Shown piece after piece: positions 19,375 to 59,268 of a stretch of 64,000 bases of DNA. The notes under the pieces are model-generated. The model was given only the letters and a program-made list of their open reading frames with translations. It had not been told where the DNA came from and made no database searches. The stretch comes from Gautieria morchelliformis. Taxonomy: Eukaryota > Basidiomycota > Agaricomycetes > Gomphales > Gomphaceae. Made by a program: the position numbers and the translations under genes. Location of the stretch: positions 310,001 to 374,000 of the forward strand of contig WHVA01000017.1 in the NCBI GenBank assembly GCA_015179125.1, in the 5' to 3' direction. Within the stretch, counting starts at the first letter, position 1. Each line of letters begins with the position of its first letter.

Positions 19375-19387
19375 CGCCCCCTCAAGC

Positions 19388-23627: not shown

Positions 23628-23632
23628 AACCC

Positions 23633-29363: not shown

Positions 29364-29392
29364 TTCACTACCTTTTAATTAATATTTATTAA

Positions 29393-29527
29393 TACTACTA
29401 GCTTTTTGTAGTTTTAATGTCATATTTATTGCTAATTACTATCAGGAATCAATCCCCTTAGTTACTTATGTATTTAGATAGTAATTAGCAATAAATATAA
29501 CCTTAAAACTGCAAAATATTAGTAGTA
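29393..29527. mobile_element. 135-base MITE with 51-base inverted arms and TTAA flanks
   Basis: Arms 29393-29443 and 29477-29527 are near-perfect inverted repeats starting TACTACTA, separated by 33 bases. TTAA lies directly outside both ends (29389-29392 and 29528-29531). A miniature element with TTAA target duplication fits the piggyBac superfamily. No transposase of that type is in the window, so the superfamily label is inference from the duplication alone. Confidence 0.75.
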
Positions 29528-29689
29528 TTAAAATTTCTTTTTTTGTTCATTCATATAACTATAATTCAGTTATATTAAGGTTATGCAAGGTCATGATTAA
29601 ATTATGAGCTCAAGGAAACCATACTACAATTATAATATATTATGCTATAAAAAATAATATAATCTTACTTGGACAATCCTATCAAGGAT

Positions 29690-30065: not shown

Positions 30066-31650
30066 CAAGTTTTTTTTTTTTTTTTTTTGCCAGGGAGGGG
30101 AAATCTGCTAACAGGCAAACTTCTTTGTCAGAAGTGTGGGGTTTTTACCCACTAAAACCCACCCTCCTCATCAGCCAGGCTTTCAAGGTTCACTGCCCCA
30201 CACTTGCTGCCCATCAGGACAGCAGTCAGGTTTGACGTGGATCTGATCCTATGCAGCTCTTGGCTATTAGCATCAATAATCATGATGAGTAATGCCCTTA
30301 ATTATTTTTATTAGTTTTCTGTTTTCACCCATCTCCCATTTCTTCACTCGGGAGCATCCTGTCCCATCTTCTGATGGTCAGGTCTCCTTTCTGTAGTGTT
30401 GCTGCAAAGTCTGTGTTCACCCATTTTTCCTGGAAGCACTTTATCTCTCAGCTTCTCTTTCGCTTATCTTTTCTTATCAGGGCCATCGAGTGCTCCCTTT
30501 GTATCGCATCTGGAGAGTCAGTGGACGTGGCTGCGTCGGGAGAGTCGGTGGACGTGGCTGCATCCGGAGAGTCGGGGGGCGTGGTTGCATCCGGAGAGTC
30601 AGTGGCGAACGACGATGAAGCTGACGATGCGGGTAAGGAGGTGATGGTCACCGTGATGGGTTTTGCCGCCGCGCTGTACAGGGGCGATTTAATAGCTCGT
30701 ACATCTAGCCTTTTCGCAAGACCCGAACCGCGGTTAGTAAGGTGAGGCGGAGATTAGTGCTATGAATGATATTAATGTAAGTGATAGAATTCTGACCTTT
30801 GCATGGGTGCGGCATTGACCAAGGCGGTCATGACAAGACCTGCTGAAAGGAGTGGAGAATACAAACATTACGAAAGTTGTCGAATGGATCCCGTGTACAA
30901 TAGAATTAGTGAGATAAAATTGAAGTAAGTGTTAGGGAGCGCCAGGCTCTTTTGGATCAACTTAGAGACGCCGATGACAACACGGCGTGCGCATGTCCAC
31001 TATAACGGTGAACGGCACGGCATGCGAGTCCTTGGGTGGCCTCATATCCTATAAATTGACGCGGGAAACTTGTGATCCATCGCCCGGATCAACTTTGATT
31101 TGATCGGACTTGGAGCATCTAGTCCCAATCAGTAACTTGAGGTCCGCCTCGGGACCGAAGAAGTATACTGCTTTGTCCGGCGCGCGCCGGGCTTTGGAAC
31201 AACCAACCCCAGGAGCGTGTTGCAGCACGGTGCCACGCGTTGTGTGACAACACGCAACAGGGTGAGGGGAAGATCGATATGCGAGTGGACGGCGGGGTAC
31301 AGTGAAGGAGGCCTCGAGCTGGAGAATTTCAGCGCCGGATGGTGAGTGAGAGCGCTCACCTCAAAGGGGAGCGAGTGGTGACGAGGTTCCTCGTGGAACT
31401 CGACGGCGCACCAATGGCCACAATTGGGTGCTGGTGTGAGCGACGGGCGGGTGTGTTGCAGCCCGCGTTGTGTGACAAACGCGCAACAGCGTGAGGGAGT
31501 GGGCGCGAGTGCTTCAAATGCAACTACCAGTGCAGTATTTGGGTTCATACGGGCTCTATCTTATGTAAGGTCTGCCTGGGTAGAGCAAGGTTTTCGCGCA
31601 GCCGTCGAGCTCGGAGAAGGTCGATGGTCGATGTGAAGGGGGTTTCATCA
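30066..31650. other. non-coding stretch with small repeats
   Basis: It holds a poly-T run (30070-30087), a 27-base tandem repeat (30512-30610) and a pair of imperfect direct repeats at 31216-31264 and 31450-31496. Both members of that pair contain GCGTTGTGTGACAA followed by CGCAACAG, a near-palindrome. No gene is recognised. Confidence 0.4.
30512..30610 (+). repeat. 27-base minisatellite, about 3.5 copies
   Basis: The unit GGAGAGTCAGTGGACGTGGC and its variants repeat every 27 bases. Because 27 is a multiple of three, it keeps an open frame (GESVDVAAS repeated). The surrounding frame is not recognisable as a gene. Confidence 0.7.
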
Positions 31651-31939
31651 TTCCTATAGGTGAAAGTAGCACGGTGGGAGGTTGTGGGCGCGCTTACAAA
31701 TAATATTACGTAAAACTTAGGTCAGCGGCGAGCGGCGCAGCCGCGAGCACCAACGCTGCGCAGCGGTCACGTGACCGGCAGACCGGCGTGAACCTGGAGC
31801 GCGAGCGGCGCAGCCGCGAGCCCCTGGCGGTTCACGCCGATCTGCGGGCTCCAGCGCTCAACCCTGCGCTGGCAACGAACGCTGCGCAGCGGTCACGTGA
31901 CCCGTTCGCGCGTGGTCCGTGCACGACGCGCGCGCACGG

Positions 31940-31945
31940 TATAAA
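31940..31945 (+). promoter_or_regulatory. TATA box in Hel-1
   Basis: TATAAA stands downstream of a block (GTGGTCCGTGCACGAC) that also precedes the TATA box of Hel-4 at 48521. The paired conservation suggests a retained RNA polymerase II promoter. Confidence 0.5.
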
Positions 31946-32887
31946 GGCAGAACGGTAAGGATGGAACGGTAGGAATCTGCCCACTGGCATTCCTCTTGCT
32001 GCTGTCCGCTCTGTTCACTGTCTGCTCTGCTCTGTCTGCTGTCTGCTCTCTATGGTGTCTCCTCCTTTAGCTGGCTGGCTGTCTATTGCTTTGGCAGGCT
32101 AGCTATCTTTTGCTTGGCTGGATTTCTATTGATAGGTAATATCTCTTTTTTAATGCATTGCCATGTATTTTATTTTATTTGGTTCCTTTTTTTTTTTTCA
32201 TTATATTGTATTGTCACATGTGCTTTATATTTTTCTGATTTTTTTCGAAAATAGATTTAAATAACATCCCCAGACTGTGGTGAAAAAATTGTAGTGTAAT
32301 ATTTATATTTTTCAGGTTTTTTTCGAAAATAGACATCAATAAGTTTCCTCTAAAATTAATGACAATAGGTTGTGCTTTTAAATGTGGTTTGTTTTATTGT
32401 TTTATGGACTGTAAAGCTGCTTACCTATACTGGTGGCTGGCTTACTATGGCTCTGGGTTTCTCTGTCAGTACCTGGGCTTCTCTAGCTTTGGCTGGGCAT
32501 TAATAACAGCTTCTGCTTCAATGTTCTGTACTTTTTTGACATTTTTTCGCAAATAGATATCAATAAATTATCCTGACTTTGTGAAAATTGACAACAGCTC
32601 CAGGTTAAATGTACAGTGCATTTTTTTGACATTTTCGAAAAATAGATAACCCTAACTTTGCTAAAATTAATAACAGCTTCAGCTTACATGTACTGGACAT
32701 TTTCTTGACATTTTTTCAAAAAATAGATAATCCTGACTTTGCTAAAAATTAATGACAGCTGCTTAAATATGGTTTCCTTGACTATTTTATTTATGTCTGT
32801 ATATGTCACAAAATAGATATTGATACATGTCCCTGAGTTTGCAAGTAGTAACAGCCTCTGCTTGCTTCACTTTGAGGCCCTTGGGGA

Positions 32888-33862
32888 TATGCTACACATA
32901 CCATTGGGACATGCTACGCATGCTATACTTGAGAGGCATGCTACACACACTATGCATGGAGACATGCATGTTATGCGTGGGGACACGCACGCTATGCTTG
33001 GGGACACGCATGCTATGTGTGGAGACACTCATGGTATGCATGGAGACATGAATGTTATGCGTGGGGACACGCACGCTATGCTTGGGGACACGCACGCTAT
33101 GCATGGAGACATGCATGTTATGCGTGGGGACACGCATGCTATGCTTGGGGACACGCATGTTATGCGTGGAGACAGGCATGCTATGCATGGGGACACACAC
33201 GCTATACTTGGGGACACCCATGTTATGCGTGGAGACACGCATGTTATGCATGGGGACAAGCATGCTATGCATGGGGACACACGCACATGCTATGCATGGG
33301 CGCACGCTATGCATGGGGATGTGCACACTATATGTGGGGACACACTATGCTTGGGGGACACGGTACAAACAAGGGACACACTACAGGGGAAAACACTACA
33401 AACAAGGGACATTCTACACATGCTATACTTGGGGGACACGCTACAAACAAAGGACATGCTATGCACACTATACTTGGGGGACATGTTATGCATTGGGGAC
33501 ACACTTTGCACACTATACTTGAGGGAGATGCTACACACCCTACATGTAGGGACATGCTACACATGTGGACACGCTATGCATGGGGGACACACATGCTATA
33601 ATTTAGGGACACGCTATGTTTGGGGACATGCTACAAACCAGGGACATGCTATGCATGTGAGACACGCCATGCACACTGTACTTGGGGACATGCTACATGT
33701 GGAGACACACTATGCATGGAGGACATGCTACACACACTATACTTGAGGACATGTTATGTGTGGGGTCATGTTACAAACCAGGGACACAATAAGCATGCTA
33801 TATTCGAGGCTATGCATGGAGGACATGCTATGCACGCTATACTTGGGCACATGCAGACATGT
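32888..33862 (+). repeat. 21-base minisatellite in Hel-1
   Basis: About 45 degenerate copies of GGGGACACGCATGCTATGC(G/T)T. The 21-base period keeps frames open on both strands, so long spurious ORFs (308 codons on plus) run through it. It is related to the 19-base unit in Hel-4. Confidence 0.9.
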
Positions 33863-33998
33863 GTAGAGACAGTACCTATCTTGATGTGTTACTTATAGCT
33901 ACTTTCAATTGCAATGAGATGTGTTTTACTTATCCCAAGTTTGATTTACCCAATGCGTTTGACCTACACCCCCATGTGAAGCATGGGTATCCACCTAG

Positions 33999-35301
33999 AG
34001 GTAAGGGGTCAAGAATTGAGTTAAGTTGGATATCAGAAATCGAGTTGGAAGGCAGAGGTCAGAGAGACAGAGGCCTTGCAAGTACTTGCTGTGGTAAGAA
34101 TAGGAAACAGTGCAAAGGGAGTCACATATCAAAGTCAATTATCTGATTGCAGAATAGAGGCACACATGACTGGGTTTTATACAAAGAGCTGAGACAACAT
34201 GTCAGAAGGTAGAGGTAAGCAATTCCAGTGCAAGCAAAAGTAACTAGGATAAATGGAGTAAGTAACTAATACAGAACAAGAGGAACTACAAGGGGGTTCC
34301 GGGTAGAACTAAGAACAATCAATAGGCAAAAGAACAAGGGGAATGTGGGTCTAATTGATTGTTACGTATTGGAATTCCCAGAGGTCGGAACTGGAAAGGA
34401 CAACGGCTTCAACTTATGTGTTGCGCCCCTGATGAACTACCGTCCTAAGTATTTCGGGATTGACTTGCGGATATCGCAGAAGGCAGAAGTCGGGAACAGA
34501 GTACTGAGAGTCGAGGTTCGAGGGTCGGAGAACAAAGGTCGGAAGAGGCGGAAGAGGTGGAGGACAGAGGGTCGAGAGCGGAAGGAGACAAGACTAGCAA
34601 AACTCGCTGTGCTAAGAACAGGAGACAGTGCGAAGGGAATCATGTATCGAAGTTGATTATCTGATTGCAGGAACGGAGACATACATGAGGGGGTTTTATA
34701 CAAAGAGCTGAAGCAACAGGTAATGGTATGGTACTAAGCAAATTCTGGAGAGTGCAGGAATTGGATAGACATATGGGGCAAGTAACTAATGCGGAACAAT
34801 GGGATGACAAGGGGGGTGCAGGGTAGGGTAAGTACAATGGCAAAGAACAAGGCGAGTATGTACAATAGGCCTCGGAAGAAACGGAATTACGGAAATGGTA
34901 TCTTGCTGTGTTCAGGGTCGAGTACGGGGGCCGGTATCTGGAGGTGGCCAGGGGTACTGAAATCACAAGGGTCGAGGTAGAGGGGTGCAGATGGTGCGGA
35001 TGTTGTGGAATAGAGTCGGAGGTGGTGTGGAGGCGGTGCAGAGGTGGTGCGGAGGATATGCGGATATGGCGGAGATGGTTGAGCGGAACAGTCGTAACAT
35101 TGATAGAACAAATGGATCTCCTGATGCTCCGGACTTGCTATGCTAAGGGTCAAGTAGGGAAGGCCGGTGAATAGAGTCAAAAGGGGAAGTATGTGAATAG
35201 TAAAGAACAAGGGGATCAAAAGGTCAAAGTGTGGACATTGCGGAATAGAGCCAGAGGAGGCATGGAGGTACCAGAGTTGGTCAAGCAGCATGGTCATAAC
35301 A
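33999..35301 (-). mobile_element. truncated gypsy-B-type LTR split by a nested solo LTR
   Basis: 33999-34359 and 35105-35301 align with the interior and the start of the LTR family seen at 9468-10114, in inverted orientation (start TGTTATGACC at 35301). Its other end is cut by the Hel-1 terminus. A second LTR of the same family sits inside it. Confidence 0.6.
34360..35099 (-). mobile_element. nested solo LTR, gypsy-B family
   Basis: On the minus strand it runs from TGTTACGACTG (35099) to ATACGTAACA (34360), 740 bases. It is flanked by the 5-base duplication TTGAT (34355-34359 and 35100-35104). It is a relative of the 5' LTR at 9468-10114 and is inserted into an older LTR of the same family. 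Confidence 0.85.
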
Positions 35302-35500
35302 TTACCTACCTTGATGTGTTACTTAGAGCTACTTTCAATCAATAAGATGTGTTTTACTTATCTGAATGAAATTTTCTTATCCAAATGTGTTTGACTTATC
35401 CCAAGTTTAATTTACCCAAGGTGTTTGACCTTGCTGATGCGTTTGACCTTACCGAGGCGTTTGACTTGCACCCCCGCGCGAAGCGCGGGTATCCACCTAG
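35302..35500 (+). mobile_element. Helitron 3'-end relic
   Basis: About 200 bases match the 3' ends of the other Helitrons (TTGATGTGTTACTTAGAGCT, then the GTTTGACCTTACCGAGGCG block). They finish with the hairpin CCCGCGC-GAA-GCGCGGG (35473-35489) and TATCCACCTAG. Its 5' part has been replaced by LTR sequence. Hel-2 starts at the next base. Confidence 0.8.
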
Positions 35501-35789
35501 TCTAAGAGTGAAACGCGGGGGGTGGGTGGTTGTGGGCGCCGCTGACAAATAATGTTACGTAAAAATTAGGTCAGCGGAGCGAGCGGCGCAGCCGCGAGCC
35601 CTAGGCCCAGGCCCAGCCCAGACCGACCGGTCTCTGGGGCTTGCCGGTACACCGCTGGGTGACCTGGCAGACACTGCGCAGCCGGTCCCCTCTGCCCTCC
35701 TTCTACCACCATCCCATCCCATCCCATCCCTCCCACCACCTGCATCCCTTCCATTAACATCCTATCTAGGTTCTTTCTGGTGGGTTTGA

Positions 35790-36530
35790 TGCTACTGAAA
35801 CTGCCTTTTTATGTTGGTTATTTATAATTTCGCTTTTTTGGCCTTTTTTAGGCACTTTTCAAGTGATATTTGTCCTGTCACTGGTGCACTGAGTACCTGG
35901 GTGTTTCTGGTGAGTGTTATGCTGTTGTATCTGCCTTTTCCTGATGCTTATTGTGTTCTTATTTGCTATAATTTCGCTTTTTTGGCCTTTTTTAGGCACT
36001 TTTCAAGTGACATTTGTCCTGTCACTGCTGCACTGAGTACCTGGGTGTTTCTGGTGAGTGTTATGCTGTTGTATCTGCCCTTTCTTGATGCTTATTGTGT
36101 TCCTATTTGCTATAATTTCGCTTTTTTGGCCTTTTTTAGGCACTTTTGAAGTGACATTCTTCCTGTCACTGCTGCACTGAGTACCTGGGTGTTTCTGGTG
36201 AGTGTTATGCTATTGTATCTGCCTTTTCTTGATGCTTATTATCTTCTTATTTGCTATAATTTCGCTTTTTTGGCATTTTTTAGGCACTTTTCAAGTGACA
36301 TTCTTCCTGTCACTGCTGCACTTGCTACCTGGGTGTTTCTGGTGAGTGTTATGCTATTGTACCTGCCTTTTCTTGATGCTTATTGTGTTCTTATTTGCTA
36401 TAACTTTGCTTGGTTGGCATTTTGTAGGCACTTTTCAAGTGCATTTGTCCAGTCACTACTGCATACCCTACCTGGGTATTATCCCCTTTCTGGTACGTTT
36501 TTGTAACTGTATCTGCTATTTGCAGTATTT
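35790..36530 (+). repeat. five 144-base tandem repeats with splice-like signals
   Basis: The phrase CTTTTTTAGGCACTTTTCAAG recurs in each unit, with GGCAC at 35851, 35995, 36139, 36283 and 36427, exactly 144 bases apart. Each unit has an acceptor-like CTTTTTTAG, then about 58 bases, then a donor-like CTGGTGAGT. The unit resembles a small exon set between intron halves, repeated in tandem upstream of the RepHel start. The 48-codon period also keeps a hydrophobic frame open. Confidence 0.85.
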
Positions 36531-36653
36531 ATATTAGGATCAGTGGCTTTGCAATCCGTCTGAGATACCCGCACAGCCTGTTTTCCCTGAGTTTGCCTTA
36601 ATCTGCTTGCAATGTAAGTCTGATATTGATATCTTTATCCTCTCTCTACTCTT

Positions 36654-39600
36654 ATGCCTGCATTTCTCAGGGATCCATCTACCCCAGAGAGCAACCGTCG
36701 GCGGGTGCGTGAAAGTGCGAGGGAGGGGCAGGAGGTGATGACACCACCCAGTCATCGGAGAGCGCGTCGGAGAGCGCATATTGGAGCTCAGACCCAGCCA
36801 CCCCCTCCACCACCGCCTTTTGCCATCCCTCACCCTCCTTCTAGAAGCAGTGCAGCCGATCCTTTTCAACAACCTGTGGCAGGGCCATCACGTCCACCAA
36901 TGCCTGCGGGGCCATCACTTGCTCCTGATCCCAGTCCTACAGAGCAGGTGGCAGCCCTTCGTGCTCAGTTAGCAGTTATCACACCATGGCAGCCCCTGAG
37001 AGGACATAGGCCAGACCCTGTACAGCCAGCTCCATTGCGCCCTCCTACGCTTGCATTGCGCCCTCCTACGCTTGCGGGGCCATCATATCCACCTGATCCC
37101 AGTCCTGGAGAGCAGGTGGCAGCCCTTCGTGCACAGTTAGCAGGTATCCCACCATTACAGCCCCTGAGAAGAAATAGGCCAGACCCTGTACAGCCAGCTC
37201 CTGTAGTAGGTTCTGCAGCAATTGCTCAGTTGCGTGCTCAGGCGGCTGGAATTGGACAGCCTGTAGTAGGCTCTACAGCGGTGGCAGATTTGCATGCTCA
37301 TGCTGCTGGTATACAGCCTATCCCAGCACAGCCCTTGGGAAGACACAGGCAGGCACCTTTACAACCAGCTCCTAGACCTCCTGTAGTAGGTTCTGCAGCG
37401 GTCGCAGCATTGCGGGCTCAGGCTAATGCAGTAAGACCAATGCCTCGGCTACTCCCTGCACTTCTGCGGCCTCTTCAGCGACTGCCTGCACCTCCTCAGC
37501 CTCCTCAGCCACTCCCTGCTCCTCCTCAGCCTCCTCAGCCACTCCCTGCACCTCCTCGGCCTCTTCAGCCACTCCCTGCACCTCCTCGGCCTCCTCAGCC
37601 ACTCCCTGTACCTCGGCAGCGTCCTCAGCGACCTCCTCCTCCTATTCCACTTGGTTGCTCTAGAATAATCGAGGCAGATGTGCAGCGTCATGATCTGGGT
37701 CCCATGGTTATTCCCTGCCCTGACTGTGGAGCATTACACTGGATGGCAGAGCGCCTGCTGAAATCCTCAAATCGGCGGCCCAGATTTGGTGATTGCTGTT
37801 TAGAAGGAAAGGTGCAGCTTCCAGAGCTGCCAGTGCTCCCTCAGCCATTGAGACGGCTCTTAGAGGGCCAGGACCCTGAGGCCAAACGGTTTCGCCAGAA
37901 CATCAGGCAGTACAATGCTGCATTTGCATTCACTTCCTTGGGAGCCGAGTTTGATCTAGATTTGCTTCGGGAGGGTCGTGGTCCATATGTCCTCAAGCTG
38001 CAGGGCGAACTGTATCATATTCATGGCTCTCTCATCCCTAACCCTGGGAGGCGGATACAGTATGCCCAACTTTATATATATGATCCAGCATTGGCTTTGG
38101 CACAGAGGAACATGCGTAACCCAGGTCTGTCTCCAACTATCATGGGAGACTTGCAGGAAATGCTCCTCTTATGCAATCCTCATGTTCCCATATATAGACA
38201 AGCGGCCGAGATGCTCAGAGCTCAGGGACAGAATGGTGAGATCCGGACTAGGCTCACGTACAGGGAACACAGGGATCCTAGGAGGTATAATATCCCTACT
38301 GCGGATGAGATTGCGGTGGTTCTTCCTGGAGATGGCATCATCCCTGAACCTAGGGATATTATTGTCCAGCTCAAAGGTGGACGTTTTAAAAGGGTATCCG
38401 ATATGAATCCAAACTATGCCTCTCTTCACTATGTCTTGCTCTTTCCCAGGGGAGAGTTGGGGTGGCAACCTGGTATTCGCTATCGCCAATTACCAGACGG
38501 GCGTGAGCGAAGTGGGCGTGTCACCCAAATTCAGTTCCATTCCTATCGTCTCTTCCAGAGAACAGAAGAACCTACAACACTCCTGCGCGCTGGCAAATTA
38601 TTCCAGCAGTACATTGTAGACTCTTGGGCCGCTGCAGAGCAAAGCAGGCTGTGGTGGATCAGGACAAATCAACACACTCTCCGTGCTGAGATGTATAACC
38701 AGATGATGGATGCCTTTCATCGCAATGACAATGACAGAGATCCAAACAACTTGGGCGCAAGATCCATTCTGCCTGCCACATTTCAGGGGGGACACGGGAC
38801 ATGCAGCAAAACCTGCAGAACTCTCTGGCCATTTCAAGGAAGCATGGTGTGGCAGATCTCTTTATTACCATGACTGCCAATCCCAACTGGCAGGAGGTAT
38901 TGGATGCATTGTTGCCCGGACAAACTCCTCAGGACAGGCCTGACCTGGTGTCGCGGGTGTTTCACCTCAAAAAGAAATACCTCATTGACTTGATCGTCAA
39001 GGACAAGATCTTTGGAGAAACTGTCGCTCGCGTTCACACTATTGAATTCCAGAAGAGGGGGCTCCCACACATGCACCTGCTTACCTGGTTCGATAGGGAG
39101 TCCAAGGTCAAACATCCACATGAGGTGGATTCTATGATTTCAGCAGAGTTCCCTGATCCAGAGACACATCCTGTCCTCTACCAGTTGGTCTGTGAGCTGA
39201 TGACACATGGTCCCTGTGGACAAATGAATCCAAAGGTTAGGGAGTCCAAGGTCAAACATCCACATGAGGTGGATTCTATGATTTCAGCAGAGTTCCCTGA
39301 TCCAGAGACTCATCCTGTCCTCTACCAGTTGGTCTGTGAGCTGATGACACATGGTCCCTGTGGACAAATGAATCCAAATGCACCCTGCATGGAAAATGGC
39401 AAGTGCAAGAAAGGCTTCCCAAAGCCATTCTGTGAGGAGACCGTTGTGAATGTAGATGGATATCCAAAATATCGTCGTCGCAATGATGGAAGGCTGCACA
39501 ATGTCAGAGGTGACATGCTGGACAACAGATGGGTTGTTCCATACTCTCCTCTGCTCTTGCTCAAACTCCGGTGTCACATCAACCTTGAATTCACCTTCAG

Positions 39601-41962
39601 TGTGAGGTGCGTCAAGTATATCCACAAGTATCTATACAAGGGCCACGATCGGACCACGATGGAGTTTGGTGTCGACCATGATGAGATAAAGAAGTACCTG
39701 GACGCTCGCTATGTCAGTGCTCATGAGGCCTGTTGGAGGTTGCTGGAGCGGGAAATCCACACCCAGGTGCCTGCAGTCATGGCACTGCCAGTCCATGAAA
39801 AAGACCAGCAATCAGTCGTTTTCAATCCTGATGCTGATCCGCTCACCATCATGAACAGGGTCGAGGGGTCAAAGACAGCGCTCATGGCTTACTTTGAGGC
39901 CAATGCTGCCTACCCTCATGCACGCGATGTGCTCTATGTGGATTTTCCTGAGCATTTTACCTGGAAAAAAGAGGAAAGGGTATGGACACCACGTCAAAGG
40001 GGATATAGCATTGGACGCCTTCACTTTGCAAGCCCAAAATCAGGAGAGAGATTTTATTTGCGCACTCTCCTCACGGTGGTCAAGGGGGCCAGATCCTTTG
40101 AGGAGCTTAGGACGGTGGATGGCATACAATGTGCTACTTACAAGGAGGCCTGTCTTGCCAGGGGACTTCTGGAGGATGATCAGGAGTGGAGGTTGTGTCT
40201 CCAGGAAGCCAGTGGCATGAAAACAGGTGCTCAGCTCAGACATCTCTTTGCCACCATCCTTGGTCATTGCATTCCCTCACAGCCTGACAGACTATGGGAC
40301 GCCTTCAAGGAGCACATATGTGATGATCTCAGACATCGGCTCCAAGTCAGACACAATATCCAGGAGCCACGGGATGATCAGGTCTATGATTTTGGCCTCT
40401 TTCTCTTGGATAAACTCCTTCAGCGTAATGGAATGTCCTTGAGCAGCTTTAAAGATATGCCTCGGGTGGTAGGCGAGTGGGAGGTCCTGATTGGAAACAG
40501 GTTCATAGCTGAGCAGAGGGACTATGACCCTGTTCAAGAGAGGCAGATGGCTGATGAGGAGGTTCCCAAGCTGAATGAGGGGCAAAGGTCTGCGCATGAT
40601 CAGATATTACGGTCGGCACTGGACATAGATGCTCAGGGGAAACCTAATGGACAAATGTTTTTCGTCACTGGATCAGGGGGCGCTGGGAAATCATTCACAT
40701 GGAACACCCTAATCCACTCCTGTAGAGCGGAGAGTCTCATTGTGCTTGCTGTAGCCTCATCTGCAATGGCTGCACTTATCCTCACTAATGGGACAACCTC
40801 TCACAGCATGCTTGGAATTCCAATTCCTGTCCATGAGGGCTCTCTCTCCTCCATCAAAAAGAACTCTGACCAGGCTGATATGCTGAGACTGGCCAGGCTC
40901 ATCATTTGGGATGAGGCTGCAATGCAGCATCGCCATGCCGTAGAGGCCATTGACAGGACACTGAGGGATTTCCTTGACCAGCCTGACAGACCCTTTGGTG
41001 GCATCACGGTCGCCTTTGGAGGTGACTTTCAGCAGACTCTCCCAATTGTCCCTAAAGGCTCCAAGGAGGATATCGTGGGAGCTACCCTTCAGAAGTCATA
41101 TCTGTGGCCAAGGATCAAGGTCCTCCATCTGACAGAGAACATGCGGGTGAGAAATGACCCTGACAGAGCCAGGTTTGCAGAATGGCTGCAGAATGTGGGT
41201 CAGGGAAAGGATCTCCCACTAGATCATACCTTCTCACTCCCTCCTCACATGGTTTGTGGCCCTGGAATTGCAGAGCTGATCCAGGAAATATACCCTGGCA
41301 TTGGCAATGCAATCCCTGCCCAGGACAATTATTTTTTAGAGCGGGCCATCCTCTGTCCCAGAAATATTGAGGTCAATGAGATCAATTCCATGGTGTTGAG
41401 GCAGTTTCCAGGTGATGCTCAGGTCTTCCACTGTGCAGATTCTGTCAAGGAAACCGACTTTGCAGAGCAGTATCCTGTGGAGTATCTGAATTCCATAGAG
41501 ATGGGCAGTCTTCCTCCTGCTCACTTGGAAGTCAAGCCTGGAGTGCCTCTGATGATGTTGCGCAATTTGGATAAGAAGCAAGGACTATGCAATGGGACAA
41601 GGTTGCGGTTGGTGAGGATGAGGAATAGAGTGTTGGAGGTCAGGATCATCTCAGGTCCACGTGCAGGAAATACTGCTTTCATCCCCAGGATCACCATTTC
41701 ACCATCAGAGGGGGAATTACCATTTGTGCTGCAGAGGAGACAGTTTCCAGTGCGTGTGGCATTTGCAATGACCATCAACAAGTCTCAGGGACAGTCTTTG
41801 GGTACGGTTGGGCTGGACCTGAGATATCCAGTGTTTGGACATGGTCAGTTGTATGTTGGTGTTTCAAGGGGAACAAGCTTGAACAAAGTGAAGGTCTTGC
41901 TTGAGGAGGGTTTGAACACAACCAACATTGTATATAAAGATGTATTACTTAGAGCTCCTTGA
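36654..41962 (+). CDS. RepHel protein of Hel-2 (HUH nuclease plus Pif1-type helicase), one frame break
   Basis: Rolling-circle transposase/helicase. The order is: a Pro/Ala-rich N-terminus with ALRAQ repeats; a zinc-finger-like CPDCGALHW segment; the Helitron-like N-terminal domain; and an HUH motif (GLPHMHLLTWF, near 39060). The two-tyrosine Rep motif KYIHKYLYKG lies near 39613. The helicase has Walker A (TGSGGAGKSFTWN, near 40666), Walker B (IIWDEAAM), GGDFQQTLPIV and AMTINKSQGQSLGTVGLDL. A 144-base in-frame duplication (48 residues, RESKVKHPHEV...) sits just after the HUH motif, with copies starting near 39096 and 39240. The frame shifts once near 38790 at a G run, so the copy is probably not functional as it stands. 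Start: ATG with MPAFLRDPSTPE, shared with Hel-3. Confidence 0.88.
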
Positions 41963-42124
41963 TTTCTGATATCTACTTGATGCAAATTGATTGCTTTGAT
42001 TTTCTCCAATGCACTTGACCTTACTGATATGTTAGACTTACTGATGTGTTAGACTTACTGATGCATTTGACCTTACCGAGGCGTTTGACTTGCACCCCCG
42101 CGCGAAGCGCGGGTATCCACCTAG

Positions 42125-45100
42125 TTCCTATAGGTGAAAGCAGCACGGTGGGAGGTTGTGGGCGCCGCTTATAAATAATATTACGTAAATCTTATGTCAG
42201 CGGCGAGCGGCGCAGCGGCGAGCACCAACGCTGCCCAGCGGTCACGTGACCGGCAGACCGGCTTGAACCTGGAGCGCGAGCGGCGCAGCCGCGAGCTCCT
42301 GGCGGTTCACGCCGATCTTCCGGCTCCAGCGCTCAACCCTGCGCTGAGCTGGCAGAACGCGCTGGCAGAACGCGCTGGCAGAACGCTGCGCAGCCGCGTC
42401 TGCGCACTCCACCACCACCCTCCTCTCCTCTCTGCCCACTAGATAGAATAAAATTGCGTGAGAGTGAATTAATAGATAGCCTATATAGTGCAGAACACAA
42501 AAGATTATAGTGTAGAACACAAAAGATCTCTTCCCAGGGAGATCTCTGCAGTGAACTGTTGGGGTTGACCTCTTCAGTGGGGCAGCTTTTTCTCTGCTAA
42601 GGAGCCAGGTAGTCATCCCAGGCTGCCTTAGAGGGAGCCACAATTGCATTGCAGTTCTCTTAGTGTTGACTTGCACTACTGGTGGCTGAAGAAGACATCT
42701 CCCCAGGACCAGGACCAGGACCAGGATCTTTTACTGGAATTATTCCAGTTGGATAGCCGAAGAAGACTTGGATATTTTCATCAAACAATTTCCCCGTCCC
42801 TTCCTTGGTACGTATATATTTCTCTTTGGTCTGCTGTGAGCCATCTGACATTTATTTTATTTTAAATAGAAAATCATAAATTCCCTTGACTTTGCCTAAC
42901 AAACAAATTCTCAGTCCCATCCTTGGTACGTATATATTTCTCTGTGCTCTGGTGTGAGCCATCTGACATTTATTTATTTTATTTTAATTAGAAATTAATA
43001 AATTCCCCTGACTTTGCCCAAGAAAAATTAACAACAGCTGCATCTGCTTGCAAATGTAAGTTGAATTGTGGTAGCTTGATTGTTCCCCTAAGCTTATGCC
43101 TGCATTTCTCAGGGATCCATCTACTCCAGAGAGAAATCGTCAGCAGGAGCGTGAAAGGGCGAGGGAGGAGCAGGAGGGTCACATGACGTCGCCCACTGAT
43201 CGGAGAGCGCGTGCACTTGCTGCTGCTGCTGTCAGAGCTCAGGACCAGCCACCCCCTCCACCACAGCCTTTTGCCATCCCCCACCCTCCTCCTAGAAGCA
43301 ATGTCGCTGATCCTTTTCAACAACCTGTGGCCGGGCCATCACGTCCTCCTATGCTTGCAGGACCATCGCGTCCTCCTAATCTCAGTCCTGGAGAGCAGGT
43401 GGCAGCCCTTCGTGCACAGTTAGCAGTTATCCCACCATTACAGCCCCTGAGAAGAAATAGGCCAGACCCTGTACAGCCTGCTCCCGTAGTAGGTTCAGCG
43501 GCTATTGCTCAGTTGCGTGCTCAGGCAGCTGGAATTGGACATCCGGTGGTAGGCTCTACAGCGGTGGCAGATTTGCGTGCTCAGGCTGCTGGGATACTGC
43601 CTATCCCAGCACAGCCCTTGGGAAGACACAGGCAAGCACCTGTACAACCAGCTCCTAGACCTCCTGTAGTAGGTTCTGCAGGAGTGGCAGCATTGCGTGC
43701 TCAGGCCAATGCAATAAGACCAATGCCGCCGCTACTCCCTGCACTTTTGCGGCCTCTTCAGCGACTCCCTGCACCTCCTCAGCCGCTCCCTGCACCTCCT
43801 CAGCCTCCCCAGCCACTCCCTGAACCTCCTCAGCCGCTCCCTGGACCTCCTCAGCCGCTCCCTGCACCTCCTCAGCTGCTCCCTGCACCTCCTCAGCCGC
43901 TCCCTGTACCTCGGCAGCGTCCTCAGCGACCTCCTCCTCCTCTTCCACTTGGTCGCTCTAGAATAATTGAGGCAGATGTGCAGCGTTATGATTTGGGTCC
44001 CATGGTTATTCCCTGCCCTGACTGTGGAGCATTACACTGGAGGGCAGAACGTCTGCAGAAATCCTCAAATGTGCGGCCCAGATTTGGTGATTGCTGTATG
44101 GAAGGAAAGGTGCAGCTGGAAGACCTGCCAGAGCCCCCTCAGCCGTTGAAACAGCTTTTAGAAGGCCAGGACCCTGAGGCAAAAGGATTTCGCCAGAATA
44201 TCAGGCAGTATAATGCTGCGTTTGCATTCACTTCTGTGGGGGCCAACTTTGACCAAGATTTGCTTCGGGAGGGTCGTGGTCCATATGTGCTCAAGCTACA
44301 GGGTGAACTGTATCATCTCCATGGCTCTCTCCTCCCTGACAATGAAGACGATCCAAAGTATGCCCAGCTTTACATATATGATCCTGCACTGGCTTTGGCA
44401 AAGAGAAAAAATCGTAATGAGCGTCTGTCTCCAACTATCATGGGAGACTTGCAGGAAATGCTCCTGCTATGCAATCCTCATGTGCGCATATATAAACAAG
44501 CAGCTGAGAGGCTCAGAGCTCAAGAACAGAATGGTGACATCCAGGCAAGGCTCACATACAGGGCACACAGGGATCCTAGGAGATATAATGTCCCAACTGC
44601 AGATGAGATTGCAGTTGTTCTTCCTGGAGATGGCATCGACCCTGAACCTAGGGATATTATTGTCCAGCTCAGAGGTGGACCTTTCAGAAGGGTATTGGAT
44701 ACCAATGCAAACTATGCCTCTCTGCACTATGTCTTGCTCTTTCCCAAGGGAGAGTTGGGATGGGAACCAGGTATTCCTTATCATGAGCCAGAGCGTGCTC
44801 CGCAGGCCAATCCCAATCCAAACAGACGGACACAGGTCACCCAAATACAGTACCATGCGTATCGTCTGTTCCAGAGAGCGAGAGAACCTACAACACTCCT
44901 GCGTGGTGGCAAATTGTTCCAGCAGTACATTGTAGACTCCTGGGCTGCTGCAGAGCAAAGCAGACTTCGGTGGATCAGGGCCAATCAACACACTCTGCGT
45001 GCTGAGCAGTATAACCAGATGGTAGATTCATATGGAGGCTTGGACAATGACATTGGAGATGCAAACAGCTTGGGTGTAAAAGTCATTCTGCCTGCAACAT

Positions 45101-48100
45101 TTCAAGGGAGTACACGGGACATGAATCAAAACTGCCAGAACTCCCTGGCCATTGCAACAAAGAAGGGTCCCCCTGATTTATTTATTACCATGACTGCCAA
45201 TCCAAAGTGGGATGAGATAGTGGCTGAGTTGCTCCCTGGACAAACTGCTCAGGACAGACCTGACCTGGTGTCGCGGGTGTTTCACCTCAAAAAGAAATAC
45301 CTCATTGACTTGATCGTCAAGGACAAGATCTTTGGAGAAACTGTCGCTCGCGTTCACACTATTGAATTCCAGAAGAGGGGGCTCCCACACATGCACCTGC
45401 TTACCTGGTTCGATAGGGAGTCCAAGGTCAAACATCCACATGAGGTGGATTCTATGATTTCAGCAGAGTTCCCTGATCCAGAGACACATCCTGTCCTCTA
45501 CCAGTTGGTCTGTGAGCTGATGACACATGGTCCCTGTGGACAAATGAATCCAGATGCACCCTGCATGGAAAATGGCAAGTGCAAGAAAGGCTTCCCAAAG
45601 CCATTCTGTGAGGAGACCGTTGTGAATGTAGATGGATATCCAAAATATCGTCGTCGCAATGATGGAAGGCTGCACAATGTCAGAGGTCACATGCTGGACA
45701 ACAGATGGGTTGTGCCATACTCTCCTCTGCTCTTGCTCAAACTCCGGTGTCACATCAACCTTGAATTCACCTTCAGTGTGAGGTGCGTCAAGTATATCCA
45801 CAAGTATCTATACAAGGGCCACGATCGGACCACGATGGAGTTCGGTGTCAACCATGATGAGATAAAGAAGTACCTGGACGCTCGCTATGTCAGTGCTCAT
45901 GAGGCCTGTTGGAGGTTGCTGGAGCGGGAAATCCACACCCAGGTGCCTGCAGTCATGGCACTGCCAGTCCATGAAAAAGACCAGCAATCAGTCGTTTTCA
46001 ATCCTGATGCTGATCCGCTCACCATCATGAACAGGGTCGAGGGGTCAAAGACAGCGCTCATGGCTTACTTTGAGGCCAATGCTGCCTACCCTCATGCACG
46101 CGATGTGCTCTATGTGGATTTTCCTGAGCATTTTACCTGGCAAAAAAGAGGGAAGGGTATGGACACCACGTCAAAGGGGATATAGCATTGGACGCCTTCA
46201 CTTTGCAAGCCCAAAATCAGGAGAGAGATTTTATTTGCGCACTCTCCTCACGGTGGTCAAGGGGGCCAGATCCTTTGAGGAGCTTAGGACGGTGGATGGC
46301 ATACAATGTGCTACTTACAAGGAGGCCTGTCTTGCCAGGGGACTTCTGGAGGATGATCAGGAGTGGAGGTTGTGTCTCCAGGAAGCCAGTGGCATGAAAA
46401 CAGGTGCTCAGCTCAGACATCTCTTTGCCACCATCCTTGGTCATTGCATTCCCTCACAGCCTGACAGACTATGGGACGCCTTCAAGGAGCACATATGTGA
46501 TGATCTCAGACATCGGCTCCAAGTCAGACACAATATCCAGGAGCCACGGGATGATCAGGTCTATGATTTTGGCCTCTTTCTCTTGGATAAACTCCTTCAG
46601 CGTAATGGAATGTCCTTGAGCAGCTTTAAAGATATGCCTCGGGTGGTAGGCGAGTGGGAGGTCCTGATTGGAAACAGGTTCATAGCTGAGCAGAGGGACT
46701 ATGACCCTGTTCAAGAGAGGCAGATGGCTGATGAGGAGGTTCCCAAGCTGAATGAGGGGCAAAGGTCTGCGCATGATCAGATATTACGGTCGGCACTGGA
46801 CATAGATGCTCAGGGGAAACCTAATGGACAAATGTTTTTCGTCACTGGATCAGGGGGCGCTGGGAAATCATTCACATGGAACACCCTAATCCACTCCTGT
46901 AGAGCGGAGAGTCTCATTGTGCTTGCTGTAGCCTCATCTGCAATGGCTGCACTTATCCTCACTAATGGGACAACCTCTCACAGCATGCTTGGAATTCCAA
47001 TTCCTGTCCATGAGGGCTCTCTCTCCTCCATCAAAAAGAACTCTGACCAGGCTGATATGCTGAGACTGGCCAGGCTCATCATTTGGGATGAGGCTGCAAT
47101 GCAGCATCGCCATGCCGTAGAGGCCATTGACAGGACACTGAGGGATTTCCTTGACCAGCCTGACAGACCCTTTGGTGGCATCACGGTCGCCTTTGGAGGT
47201 GACTTTCAGCAGACTCTCCCAATTGTCCCTAAAGGCTCCAAGGAGGATATCGTGGGAGCTACCCTTCAGAAGTCATATCTGTGGCCAAGGATCAAGGTCC
47301 TCCATCTGACAGAGAACATGCGGGTGAGAAATGACCCTGACAGAGCCAGGTTTGCAGAATGGCTGCAGAATGTGGGTCAGGGAAAGGATCTCCCACTAGA
47401 TCATACGTTCTCACTCCCTCAACACATGGTTTGTGGCCCTGGAATTGCAGAGCTGATCCAGGAAATATACCCTGGCATTGGCAATGCAATCCCTGCCCAG
47501 GACAATTATTTCTTGGAGCGGGCCATCCTCTGTCCCAGAAATATTGAGGTCAATGAGATCAATTCCATGGTGTTGAGGCAGTTTCCAGGTGATGCTCAGG
47601 TCTTCCACTGTGCAGATTCTGTCAAGGAAACCGACTTTGCAGAGCAGTATCCTGTTGAGTATCTGAATTCCATAGAGATGGGCAGTCTTCCTCCTGCTCA
47701 CTTGGAAGTCAAGCCTGGAGTGCCTCTGATGATGTTGCGCAATTTGGATAAGAAGCAAGGACTATGCAATGGGACAAGGTTGCGGTTGGTGAGGATGAGG
47801 AATAGAGTGTTGGAGGTCAGGATCATCTCAGGTCCACGTGCAGGAAATACTGCTTTCATCCCCAGGATCACCATTTCACCATCAGAGGGGGAATTACCAT
47901 TTGTGCTGCAGAGGAGACAGTTTCCAGTGCGTGTGGCATTTGCAATGACCATCAACAAGTCTCAGGGACAGTCTTTGGGTACGGTTGGGCTGGACCTGAG
48001 ATATCCAGTGTTTGGACATGGTCAGTTGTATGTTGGTGTTTCAAGGGGAACAAGCTGGAACAAAGTGAAGGTCTTGCTTGAGGAGGGTTTGAACACAACC

Positions 48101-48301
48101 AACATTGTATATAAAGATGTATTACTTAGAGCTCCTTGATTTCTGATATCTACTTGATGCAAATTGATTGCTTTGATTTTCCCCAATGCACTTGACCTTA
48201 CTGATATGTTAGACTTACCGATGTGTTAGACTTACTGATGCATTTGACCTTACCGAGGCGTTTGACTTGCACCCCCGCGCGAAGCGCGGGTATCCACCTA
48301 G
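42125..48301 (+). mobile_element. Helitron Hel-3, with RepHel gene
   Basis: The 5' end TTCCTATAGGTGAAAGCAGC abuts the CTAG of Hel-2. The 3' end has the same 17-base hairpin and CTAG (48298-48301). It shares its 5' type with Hel-1, while its 3' half is almost identical to Hel-2. The leader (42440-43090) has a (CAGGAC)n stretch near 42710 and two units of about 120 bases, each with TTGGTACGTATATATTTCTC. The copy is 6177 bases long. Confidence 0.88.
43096..48139 (+). CDS. RepHel protein of Hel-3, one frame break
   Basis: Same domain order as the Hel-2 protein: Pro-rich and ALRAQ repeats, CPDCGALHW finger, N-terminal Helitron domain, HUH motif GLPHMHLLTWF, KYIHKYLYKG, and a Pif1-type helicase with Walker A TGSGGAGKS near 46843. 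It lacks the 144-base duplication found in Hel-2. The frame shifts once at an A run near 46143-46148. About 1680 residues. From 45257 to the end it is nearly identical to Hel-2, whereas upstream it differs at many positions. The Pro-rich segment near 43740-43930 is a low-complexity CCTCCTCAGCC repeat. Confidence 0.88.
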
Positions 48302-48520
48302 TCTAAGAGTTAAACGAGGGGGGTGGGTGGTTGTGGGCCTGCTGACCAATGCTTGGTCATTAGTTTGTCAGCGGAGCGCGCGAGTGGCGCAGCCGCAAGC
48401 CCCCCGGTCTGTTTAGGTCAGCGGCGAGCGGCGCAGCCGCGAGTTACAAACGCTGCGCAGCAGCGTTCCAGGTCACGTGACCGGTTCGCGAGGGTGGTCC
48501 GTGCACGACCCTTCGCTTGG

Positions 48521-48526
48521 TATAAA
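48521..48526 (+). promoter_or_regulatory. TATA box in Hel-4
   Basis: TATAAA follows GTGGTCCGTGCACGAC, the same upstream phrase as in Hel-1, at a similar distance from the 5' GC-rich block. Confidence 0.5.
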
Positions 48527-49171
48527 GAGAGCGATGCTGCAGAACCGCACTCCCCACTGGTGTCCTCCTGTGTTCTGGCTGTGGTGGGCTTACTACTGCT
48601 TTGGCTGGGGTCTTGGTGTCTTTCTGTCTCTGGGTGTCTCTGGGCTTCTTTGGCTGTGAATTGACCCCAGCTTCTGCTTCAATGTCCTGTATATTTTTTG
48701 ATATTTTTTCGCAAATTGCTATCAATACACCTAACTTGCTAACCTTAATAATAGCCAACTTAAATATCCTGTACATTGTTTTGATATTTTTTTCGCAAAT
48801 AGCTATCAATAAACCTAACTTGCTAACCTTAACAATAGCCAACTTACATATCCTGTACATTTTTTGATATTTTTCCGCAAATAGACATCAATAAATCAAA
48901 CTTGCTAACCTCAATAACAGCCACCTTAACTATCCTGTAATTTCTTTGACATTTTTTCGCAAATGGATATCAATAACTTATACTGACTTTGCTCAAGTTG
49001 ATAACAACTTCTGTTTTAATGTAGTGTGTTTTTTTTATCTTTTTTTGAAAAATAAATATAGATATCAATGAATTATCCTGACTTTACTAAAATTAATAAG
49101 AACAGCTGCTTAAATGTGGCTTCTTTTCCTATTTTATATATGTCACAAAATAGATACTGATACATGTCCCT

Positions 49172-50030
49172 GATATGTGTGAGGACACGCTACCTGTGGG
49201 GACACGTTACCTGTGAGGACACGCTACGTTTGGGGACACGCTACCTGTGAGGACACGCTACCTGTAAAAACACGCTACCTGTGAGGAAACGCTACCTGTG
49301 GGGACACGCTATGTGTGGGGACACGCTACCTGTGAGGACACATTACGTTTGGGGACACACTACCTGTGAGGACACGTTACATGTGGGGACATGCTACCTG
49401 TGAGGACACGCTACCTGTGAGGACACGCTACCTGTGAGGACACGCTACCTGTGAGGACACGCTACCTGTGGGGACACGTTACCTGTGAGGACACGCTACA
49501 TTTGGGGACACGCTACCTGTGAGGACACGTTATGTGTGGGGACACACTACCTGTGAGGACACGTTACGTTTGGGGACACACTACCTGTGAGGACACGTTA
49601 CGTGTGGGGACATGCTACCTGTGAGGACACCCTACCTGTGAGGACACCCTACCTGTGGGGACACGTTACCTGTGAGGACACGCTACGTTTTGGGACACGC
49701 TACCTGTGAGGACACGCTACCTGTGAAGACACGTTACGTGTGAGGACACGTTATGTGTGGGGACACGCTACCTGTGAGGACACGTTACGTTTGGGGACAC
49801 GCTACCTGTGAGGACACGCTACCTGTGGGGACACGTTACCTGTGAGGACACGCTACGTTTGGGGACATGCTACCTGTGAGGACACGCTACCTGTGAGGAA
49901 ACGCTGCCTGTGGGGACAGGTTACCTGTGAGGACATGCTACGTTTGGGGACACGCTACCTGTGAGGACATGCTACCTGTGAGGACACGTTACGTGTGGGG
50001 ACACGCTACCTGTGTGGACATGCTATCCAA
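49172..50030 (+). repeat. 19-base minisatellite in Hel-4
   Basis: About 45 copies of GGGGACACGCTACCTGTGA with variants (GAGGACACGTTACGTTTG). The core GGGGACACGCTA is shared with the 21-base unit in Hel-1, although the periods differ. Confidence 0.9.
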
Positions 50031-50359
50031 CTGCACTTTGGGTCTTCCCCCATTTCTGATTTTGGTATTGTTTCTGGTTCTGTGAGTGTGTCACCGGAGG
50101 ATCAGCTGGCATATCGATATAACCACATTGTCAAAATTCAGGATCCCCAAGATCACTATTGGATCTATTTCACAATGCACAAGCTTTGAAACCTGTTGAT
50201 TATGACAGTAGGCGCAATCTTATAATCTCTGATGATTCAGTCAAGACTATTACCACTTTCATGTCTAGAGTCGCTGGGAGGCCCATCCCAGAGGTCGAGA
50301 GAGAGCTCTGCATGTTCGGCTGTTCCATGGGTGCATACATGATTCATGATACTATATGA
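50030..50359 (+). other. coding-like fragment inside Hel-4, possibly captured
   Basis: Between the minisatellite and the Helitron 3' end lie two overlapping open stretches with ordinary protein-like composition (VSPEDQLAYRYNHIVKIQDP; then VDYDSRRNLIISDD and IPEVERELCMFGCSMGAYM). This part does not match the other Helitrons here. Helitrons often pick up host gene pieces, so a captured fragment is plausible. I do not recognise the source. Confidence 0.4.
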
Positions 50360-50700
50360 TCAGGGATATATTTTGCATGATCCTATTTACCCCAATGCAC
50401 GTAACCTTACTGATTCACTTGACCTTACTGATGCATTTGACCTTCCCAAGGCGCTTGACCTACACCCCCGCGCGAAGCGTGGGTACCCACCTAGTACTTA
50501 CCAGCGTAACGATGGCAAACCCGTGCCCGGCGAACAATTACATAATTCTGACTCAGCTCAGAGGTCTGGAATACTTGGAACATCATATTTTTTTTGGCGG
50601 AGGGTAACGATCCATCAATACAGTAGTCATAAGGTGGATATAGTACCTGGTGTAGAAACGAATACAGCCAGTATCTACGTGGCTTCATTAGCAGGCCTCG

Positions 50701-57900: not shown

Positions 57901-59268
57901 ATACTGGCAAGGTTTGAGCGGGGGGCGAGGGGCCTTAGGGGGGATGAGGGCGTTGAGGATAGTGTGGCGGGGCATGTGTTGCGGGAGCGGACAGGGTTAT
58001 TGGATGAGAGGTGGGAGGGCACGCCGGAGGAGGAGAGGAATGCGTGAGTGGTGGTTTGCTTTGGCGTATATGGGAGCGACGGCTGATGTGCGTGGGTTTG
58101 ACTCGGATAGGTATGTGTCCGAGCTGCTGTACATTCACTCCAAGGTGTGTGAATTCGTCTCCGTGTGTGGTGTGTCTTGGTTGAATACGGTACTTTAGGT
58201 CATGATCGTGGATGATCGTCGTGTCATTGTACGTCGCTAATCTTCTCCCCTTCGCCCTTTCCCCCTTCCCCCCTTCATTCTACGCCCCTTCGCCCTTCGT
58301 CTCTCCATTTCTCTTCCGACTTCCTCTTCCCTCCCCTCAAGACAGACCACTAACATCTCCCTACAGATGGGCTCCGCAAACTTAAACGACCGTTCGCAAA
58401 AGGGTGATGGCGACTCCGAGATCGCGTTAGTGGTCGAGGACACGGATGAAATCGAGTCGAGGATGGACGGGAGACGTGTACGTGCAGTTCCCGCGTTCTT
58501 AGCCTGGCGTGGCCTGGTACGGCGCGGCTGATGTGGTTTGCTTGTGGCAGCATTTGGCGACGCGATTCGCGGCGACTCTGCGGCGGAAGCTTTACCGAGG
58601 TACGTTTCGTACATTCGTTGCGCAATGGCGCGCTCACAAGTTTCCAGAACACCTCGGCCTGATTCCCGCGCAGCCCGTCGCCTCCTCTCACGAGCCTGTC
58701 GACTCCTTCATGCGCCCCGCGCCGCACCCCAACGCTGACGAGACCATCCACCGCTCCGACGCGCTGGTCGCTGACCCGCTGTCGGACGAGGTTCTGAGCC
58801 TGTGGGAGGGCACAGCGAAAAAGAACAGAGATATATTCACCGAGGTGTTCAGACCGGTGCCGTCGGACTTGGTACAGAATTGGGAGGTATACAAGGTGCG
58901 TAAAACAGAGACGTGTGGCGTCCCATGGTTGGTGAATGACGGTTGAGTACAGAAATACGTTCCAAAAGTGAAAGCCGGCCACGTGGTCCCTGAGATGAGC
59001 CTCGATCGTGTCAAGAAGCAGCTAAGCCAGGCGCGCACAGTCCCTTCCCCTCATGTACTTTGGCTGAATTACTTATCTTTTCGTTAGGTCCGCGGTCAGC
59101 TCGTCGAGATGCCGCTAAGGTTCCTCATCGATGAGAAGGAGCTTGTTGATGTACGTGACATTTCCCCACCTATCGTTTCTATACCTGGAAGTCTGTGTTG
59201 ACATTATGTGTCCTTGACAGAATGCCGACTGGAAGGGTTTGAATCCCACGCTTCCCATTTATATTTAA
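54906..59268 (+). CDS. phospholipase D, 25 exons, two HKD motifs
   Basis: Hydrolyses phosphatidylcholine-type lipids to phosphatidic acid at membranes. Exons: 54906-54996, 55047-55064, 55111-55283, 55340-55483, 55536-55613, 55663-55722, 55772-55848, 55900-56053, 56342-56425, 56500-56575, 56623-56832, 56923-56964, 57061-57073, 57154-57253, 57313-57461, 57540-57598, 57671-58043, 58111-58144, 58199-58228, 58367-58477, 58551-58599, 58648-58895, 58953-59030, 59088-59150, 59221-59268. They join to 853 codons plus stop in a single frame. HKD motif 1: HEKVVIVD (His186, Lys188, Asp193) followed by [11 protein letters not shown]. Motif 2: HSKVMIVD (His643, Lys645, Asp650) followed by [17 protein letters not shown] before the second half is also typical. 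No PX or PH domain is seen, so it is shorter than Spo14/PLD1. Two introns start with GC (54997 and 59031). Exon edges with GC donors are less certain. Confidence 0.9.
56150..56270 (+). repeat. minisatellite inside phospholipase D intron 8
   Basis: About five copies of TCTCTGTTCTTCTTGAGCGCG, period 22-24 bases, swell this intron to 288 bases, while the others are 46-138. The repeat is pyrimidine-rich. Confidence 0.8.

Follow-up and report, generated by a model that had tools for sequence, protein, structure and literature searches.

Four related Helitrons are stacked end-to-end, without any spacer, at positions 31651-50494 of a 64,000-base stretch of the Gautieria morchelliformis genome (GCA_015179125.1, contig WHVA01000017.1, positions 310,001 to 374,000, forward strand). 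This whole stretch is termed the window here and contains no N. The members are designated E1 to E4 from left to right (Table 1). An earlier note had placed three joins between a CTAG 3' end and the next 5' end in this region; the feature is confirmed as real, and all three junctions lie where they were placed and are base-exact. The array is a four-member example of an already known head-to-tail Helitron arrangement and provides an informative new case. This stack of canonical-type (Helitron1-like) elements was probably built by successive A/T insertions at one place (slashes in sequences mark insertion points or joins).

Junctions and outer flanks

All three inter-element junctions (35500/35501, 42124/42125 and 48301/48302) are spacer-free joins of CTAG to a 5' tip, with no host A in between. 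CTAG directly precedes three of the four tips, the leftmost tip is preceded by A, and the final CTAG (50494) is directly followed by T. These outer flanks, A at 31650 and T at 50495, are the two halves of the canonical A/T target, an agreement that would arise by chance in about 1 in 16 cases for the two bases alone. All four elements, as bounded, have T as the first base. CACCTAG followed by TCTAAGAGTKAAACG (up to 3 mismatches) occurs twice in the window, compared with a mean of 0.00 in 100 shuffles, and CTAGTTCC has a single occurrence, at 42121; the joined motif of CTAG and tip is not expected by chance. The joined flanks of the array have no match in the window except the flanks themselves.

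Shared 3' ends and two classes of 5' tip

The 3' ends carry CCACCTAG, which occurs five times in the window, each time on the + strand within the array (ends at 33998, 35500, 42124, 48301 and 50494). The 13-nucleotide (nt) sequence GGTATCCACCTAG, allowing up to 2 mismatches, recovers the same five + strand sites, four exactly and one with one mismatch (chance mean 1.06, largest 4). CTAG is thus present at four of four element ends and at the internal end at 33998. The member boundaries in the earlier note are exact, but this fifth 3' end, which lies inside E1 and is followed by A, had been missed. The description of the 3' ends as one type holds, with the qualification that E4 has two differences from E1-E3 in its terminal 22 nt. 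Each of the five ends has a predicted hairpin that closes 11 nt from the terminus. In E1-E3, the fold is better than that of all 200 shuffles; the E4 hairpin (-6.3 kcal/mol) is equalled by 7 of 200 shuffles, and that of the inner end (6-bp stem, -5.5 kcal/mol) by 4 of 200. Terminal inverted repeats were not obvious by eye, and no dedicated test for them was made.

With up to 2 mismatches allowed, the 5' core GTGGGWGGTTGTGGGC is found four times in the window, in every case at an array 5' tip (chance mean 0.09, largest 1). E2 and E4 start with TC and E1 and E3 with TT(CC), so that the canonical TC is found in two of the four members. Of the two alternating 5' types proposed before, the classes stand, as the outermost ~38 nt split into type A (E1 and E3) and type B (E2 and E4). 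The two are, however, homologous sequences, and the A-B-A-B order is insignificant and was rejected as a signal, given that, by hand count, alternation occurs in two of the six possible arrangements of two A and two B.

In gap-free columns counted on E2, the first 38 nt include 8 columns that split E1/E3 from E2/E4, 1 E4-only, 1 E2-only, 1 mixed and 26 identical columns. In nt 39-80, 3 columns split E1/E3 from E2/E4, 3 pair E1/E2 against E3/E4, 11 are E4-only and 20 are identical. The contrast between 8 and 1 split and E4-only columns in the outer part and 3 and 11 in the inner part gives a Fisher p of 0.003, for a cut at 38 that was picked after viewing the alignment. E2 thus combines an outer tip like that of E4 with a subterminal stretch that is nearer to E1/E3. 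Past nt 80, 10 columns split E1/E3 from E2/E4 and 8 are E4-only, so that the likeness of E2 to E1/E3 is limited to about the first 100 nt. The end-cleavage determinants of Helraiser lie within the terminal 40 bp (PMC4778049), which makes it plausible that the ~38-nt tip works as a functional unit.

The A-type tip reads TTCC after host A and likewise after CTAG, which fixes the A-type boundary; the extra leading T is common to both A-type members. A boundary at TCC was rejected because, with it, a canonical insertion of E2 to the left of E3 would not account for the extra T seen at 42125.

Table 1. Coordinates of the Helitron array and its parts in the window
Feature	Position	Strand	Basis
Host A, left half of A/T target	31650..31650	+	Read directly
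E1: non-autonomous Helitron, 3850 bp, tip type A (TTCCTATAGG), internal 3' end	31651..35500	+	End identities with E2/E3, body likeness with E4
Inner Helitron 3' end, apparently bypassed, with a separate hairpin	33964..33998	+	GGTATCCACCTAG exact; next base A
E1 segment between inner and outer 3' ends, bearing a diverged repeat	33999..35298	+	Repeat also at 9668-10114, other strand
E2: RepHel Helitron, 6624 bp, tip type B (TCTAAGAG), frameshifted near 38791	35501..42124	+	PF14214, PIF1
E2 3' half, near-identical to E3 45259-48301	38939..42124	+	Abrupt change from diverged sequence at 38938
E3: RepHel Helitron, 6177 bp, tip type A, frameshifted near 46141	42125..48301	+	PF14214, PIF1, Helraiser 7lcc match
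E4: non-autonomous Helitron, 2193 bp, tip type B, minisatellite 49178-50025	48302..50494	+	End sequences, 3' hairpin
Host T, right half of A/T target	50495..50495	+	Read directly

Probable serial insertion at a renewed A/T site

The first element would have inserted between host A31650 and the host T that is now T50495. As the new copy starts with T, host A/T would be restored at its 5' boundary, and later copies entering this site would give A[new...CTAG]T, exact CTAG/T joins and leftward growth. The order would then run from E4, the oldest, to E1, the youngest, with canonical A/T use at each step and with new insertions possibly attracted to the resident 5' tip, where the transposase nicks. 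One type of transposase, with a 3' terminator common to all, probably mobilised the four members. Serial A/T insertion predicts an outer A, an outer T, T-first members, exact joins and mixed members, all of which are seen. In addition, the dissimilar members and the separately diverged 5' parts of the RepHel copies (see below) favour repeated insertion. At both of its ends E4, the rightmost member, has diverged further than the other three, which is compatible with its being the oldest. Insertion at an existing terminus, one of the two origins offered in the earlier note, is supported in this form, but the target would be host A plus the T of the resident 5' tip and not the CTAG end. For a tandem maize pair, one of the two readings of Du et al. 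is likewise insertion at an AT made up of a host A and a T belonging to the resident Helitron (PMC2267711). The A/T rule is strong in Helraiser, for which sites other than AT account for 46 of 1,751 mapped insertions, TT, AC and AA being most prominent among them (PMC4778049).

Several points weigh against serial leftward insertion. The divergence of E4 may reflect its subfamily and not its age, and en bloc arrival of an array made elsewhere would give the same A...T flanks. Three re-uses of one site would require some insertion bias. A+T-richness of the tips was rejected as the attractant: A+T makes up 45-60% of the adjoining 20 nt on the right side at each step, which is not above that of the average AT site (mean 54% over 4,143 AT dinucleotides in the window). 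In the maize case, some lines have the left member only, so that leftward growth would need later excision of the right member, and the alternative reading of that pair is insertion at G/T (PMC2267711).

A far-reaching extension of serial insertion would be that a resident tip acts as a self-renewing landing pad, the donor-end nick being preferred as a target and thus driving leftward stacking, and that stacks serve as workshops in which ~38-nt tips and transposase halves are swapped, yielding new 5' specificities with one 3' terminator. This extension is speculative and, taken as a whole, rather unlikely.

Mosaic RepHel copies E2 and E3

Profile matches identify Helitron_like_N (PF14214) and PIF1 (PF05970) domains in both E2 and E3. 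In E2, PF14214 is spread over two open reading frames (ORFs) and PIF1 is matched at 4.9e-66; in E3, the values are 1.1e-57 for PF14214 and 2.2e-66 for PIF1. The first ORF of E3 matches Helraiser chain 7lcc at 4.8e-167, and the second ORF continues the match. In this alignment, an HMH of E3 falls on Helraiser residues 593-595, which we take to be the HUH histidines, and two tyrosines fall on residues 727 and 731. Y727 and Y731 are the Helraiser tyrosines (PMC4778049, PMC5876387). E2 and E3 thus have the RepHel of canonical Helitron1 elements, with HUH, two tyrosines and a PIF1-like helicase, and the 3' CTRR end with a hairpin ~11 nt upstream is also of the canonical kind.

Both coding regions are frameshifted, the Rep domain of E2 being broken near 38791 and E3 being shifted near 46141. 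E2 alone also has an in-frame, near-exact tandem duplication of 144 bp (39094-39237/39238-39381). Among ORFs of at least 150 aa, no RepHel ORF is found in E1 or E4. The mixture of autonomous and non-autonomous members reported before therefore corresponds to two members with RepHel and two without, the former two bearing these lesions. The E2 leader contains a tandem repeat (35823-36463), also of period 144, the sequence of which is different from that of the 39094-39381 duplication.

The E2 and E3 leaders are unrelated past the first 100 columns (33-49% per 100-column bin). Identity of the 5' coding parts is 63-96% per bin, bins with large gaps excluded, and divergence peaks immediately ahead of an abrupt switch: the last mismatch before it is at 38938/45258, and near-identity then extends to the 3' end. 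The gapped alignment is mismatch-free from 38939 until 39377, the 144-bp gap aside, and the duplication of E2 begins ~155 bp past the switch. From 39238, the 3' halves are 99.41% identical over 2888 columns, with 16 differences and a 1-bp indel; within the ~3.2-kb repeat (~99.4%), the longest mismatch-free run is ~1.25 kb (39975-41230 in E2). Synonymous divergence (dS) is 0.50-0.53 just upstream of the switch and 0.010-0.015 downstream. Over 652 codons of the 5' coding part, dS is 0.285, nonsynonymous divergence (dN) is 0.109 and dN/dS is 0.38, indicating mostly purifying selection in both RepHel lineages during their divergence; the 5' parts of E2 and E3 therefore come from separate, mostly functional lineages.

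The Helraiser alignment places the switch ~44 residues ahead of the HUH motif, so that E2 and E3 have different N-terminal halves and a common nuclease-helicase half. The switch may have arisen by any of three routes: gene conversion, recombination that preceded transposition, or template switching. Among the four members, each combination of tip (A or B) and body (RepHel or non-coding) occurs exactly once. The mosaic, in tips versus bodies and at 38938/45258, shows recombination between family members, either before or after insertion.

The observed/expected CpG ratio is 0.38 in E2 and 0.41 in E3 versus 0.87 and 1.01 in the flanks, with TpG and CpA raised, which suggests past cytosine methylation. 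CpG decay was rejected as a measure of age: the near-identical halves are both depleted (0.33 and 0.35), and the depletion therefore largely predates the separation of E2 and E3.

Two exact-pattern scans of viral contigs gave 0 matches, and a protein scan of viral contigs gave one stretch that fitted the pattern, with no relative among the matches. A protein scan of prokaryote genomes gave 2 distant relatives at 33-35% identity. A 33% relative of the E3 helicase part lies at 1381-3372 of a contig binned as Desulfosporosinus (L001, DYPS01000124.1), for which no ORF of at least 200 aa is listed; this is possibly a misbinned eukaryotic contig.

The inner 3' end of E1

The first 222 columns of E1 are 95% identical to E3, its last 80 columns are 95% identical to E2 and to E3, and its body resembles E4 in stretches of 70-73%. 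The end at 33998 is followed by A, not T, and as it stands is not an A/T-type boundary. The following 1.3 kb holds a diverged repeat whose counterpart lies on the other strand at 9668-10114 (502 columns at 73% and 320 columns at 74%), and then comes the second 3' tail, which matches the first at 80% identity in a 102-column alignment. The structure of E1 suggests 3'-end bypass, in which the first end was passed and a downstream end was used, in line with the bypass seen in Helraiser and with the multi-terminus Helitrons of maize. A possible alternative is that other DNA inserted into E1 later. Both arms of the hairpin at 33964-33998 carry C-to-T or G-to-A changes relative to the family hairpin, yet the 6-bp stem is still predicted.

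Other origins of the array

Composite transposition, in which the array or part of it was built elsewhere and moved as a unit from the leftmost tip past internal 3' ends, is an unlikely origin, though the best placed of the alternatives. A single insertion suits the A and T outer flanks, E1 has an apparently passed internal 3' end, and intact Helraiser captures flanking DNA in an estimated ~11.7% of events (PMC4778049). Yet stepwise joining would still be required somewhere, and transposition of the whole array would have to pass four internal 3' ends (33998, 35500, 42124 and 48301). A second copy of the array is not known, although the search for one did not extend to a genome.

Somewhat less probable still is circle integration, by which a double-stranded circle (CTAG/TTCC) would cross over with a resident relative to give the E2-E3 tandem. 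Helraiser forms circles with exact head-to-tail junctions (PMC4778049, PMC5876387), and the ~3.2 kb shared by E2 and E3 at ~99.4% would be a good crossover substrate. This process accounts at best for the 42124 junction, since E1/E2 and E3/E4 share just ~80-130 bp near the 3' ends and ~70-80 bp near the 5' ends.

Rightward growth, with new copies entering directly behind CTAG at G/T, corresponds to one reading of the maize polymerase chain reaction (PCR) data, in which some lines have the left member only (PMC2267711), but it would need three non-canonical insertions, which makes it very improbable in view of the 46 non-AT insertions among 1,751 for Helraiser (PMC4778049). The chance is equally slight that junctions or unit order are an assembly artefact arising from confusion of the E2 and E3 3' halves. 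The 42124 and 48301 junctions both close the ~99.4% repeat, the pairing of 5' halves with them depends on reads spanning ~3.2 kb, and the 144-bp near-exact duplication lies just past the switch. On the other side, three junctions are base-exact, that at 35500 is outside the repeat, and the two copies can be distinguished at 16 positions and a 1-bp indel over 2,888 columns.

Rolling-circle read-through of a single element into a concatemer, the other origin in the earlier note and one proposed for bat tandem Helitrons (as told in PMC2267711), is hardly credible: the near-identical repeat units expected are not found, as length, leader and body vary among the four units, which are not mutual copies, near-identity is confined to the E2/E3 3' halves, and the RepHel 5' parts (dS 0.285) diverged mostly under purifying selection.

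Other features of the window

Elsewhere in the window, a profile match identifies a fungal protein kinase domain (PF17667), and ORFs resembling Ty1/copia- and Ty3-type retrotransposons were recognized by eye. An element at 18877-24130 has 498-bp direct repeats (18877-19374 and 23633-24130; 99.2% identical) around ORFs that are copia-like by eye, and was probably inserted recently; a 92% copy of the repeat lies at 5810-6307 on the other strand. An inverted repeat at 29389-29531, with 55-nt arms that are 89% complementary and 33 nt apart, is possibly a small element resembling miniature inverted-repeat transposable elements. Regions 58825-59459 and 62345-62964 form a direct duplication of ~82% identity.

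Comparison with known Helitrons

The earlier note regarded the array as unusual, a claim that is weakened by the maize join, abutting bat copies and a fungal triplet already published (PMC2267711, PMC4778049, PMC5148889). A four-member mixed stack was not found in the literature searched, which covered few subscription papers, in part as partial texts; this is no evidence of novelty. Tandem Helitrons have reportedly also been described in plant centromeres by Xiong et al. Stacking is not universal, as genomic tandem copies are absent for wheat Xuan1, according to the available part of its report (PMC13286980). Maize multi-terminus Helitrons have several 3' ends from nested copies, as proposed for E1; the accessible text on them mentions no spacer-free stack and no tandem or adjacent copies (PMC3288121).

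Among fungi, HELPO1 and HELPO2 of the basidiomycete Pleurotus ostreatus share with the present family RepHel, a subterminal hairpin and non-autonomous members, and they show AT insertion, as proposed for the array (PMC4289320). HELPO1.3 copies carry a satellite, comparable to the minisatellite of E4. Unlike those of the array, HELPO ends are T[C/G] and CTRR (CTTG in HELPO2), and the accessible part of that report does not mention a tandem arrangement (PMC4289320). Fusarium FoHelis also differ, having non-canonical termini with inverted repeats and, for FoHeli1/2, a target between TNAT and A (PMC5148889). A three-copy Helitron tandem like the array is known in Metarhizium acridum; of the two explanations given for it, one has a new copy entering a resident one at its 5' end, and composite termini are discussed (PMC5148889).

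Helraiser/Helibat has, like E2 and E3, a RepHel with HUH and two tyrosines, and shares the CTAG end and the hairpin 11 nt from the terminus; its A/T target and 3' bypass correspond to those proposed for the array (PMC4778049, PMC5876387). Natural bat copies abut another Helitron, as in the array (PMC4778049). Helraiser begins with TC, whereas E1 and E3 begin with TT (PMC4778049, PMC5876387). The TT start of two of the four members calls for caution with annotation methods that demand a TC start. The four tip-body combinations, present once each, make tip exchange testable in the E1-E4 family.

The maize pair of Du et al. (2008) resembles the array in its direct CTAG-to-5' G/T junction (CTAG/TC), its dissimilar members and the consecutive insertion inferred for it; it has two members, PCR-tested across lines, compared with four here (PMC2267711). 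Tandem Helitrons in bats were reported by Pritham and Feschotte (cited in PMC2267711), and the present locus bears on the debate between these authors and Du et al. as to whether such tandems are rolling-circle repeats or repeated insertions (PMC2267711).

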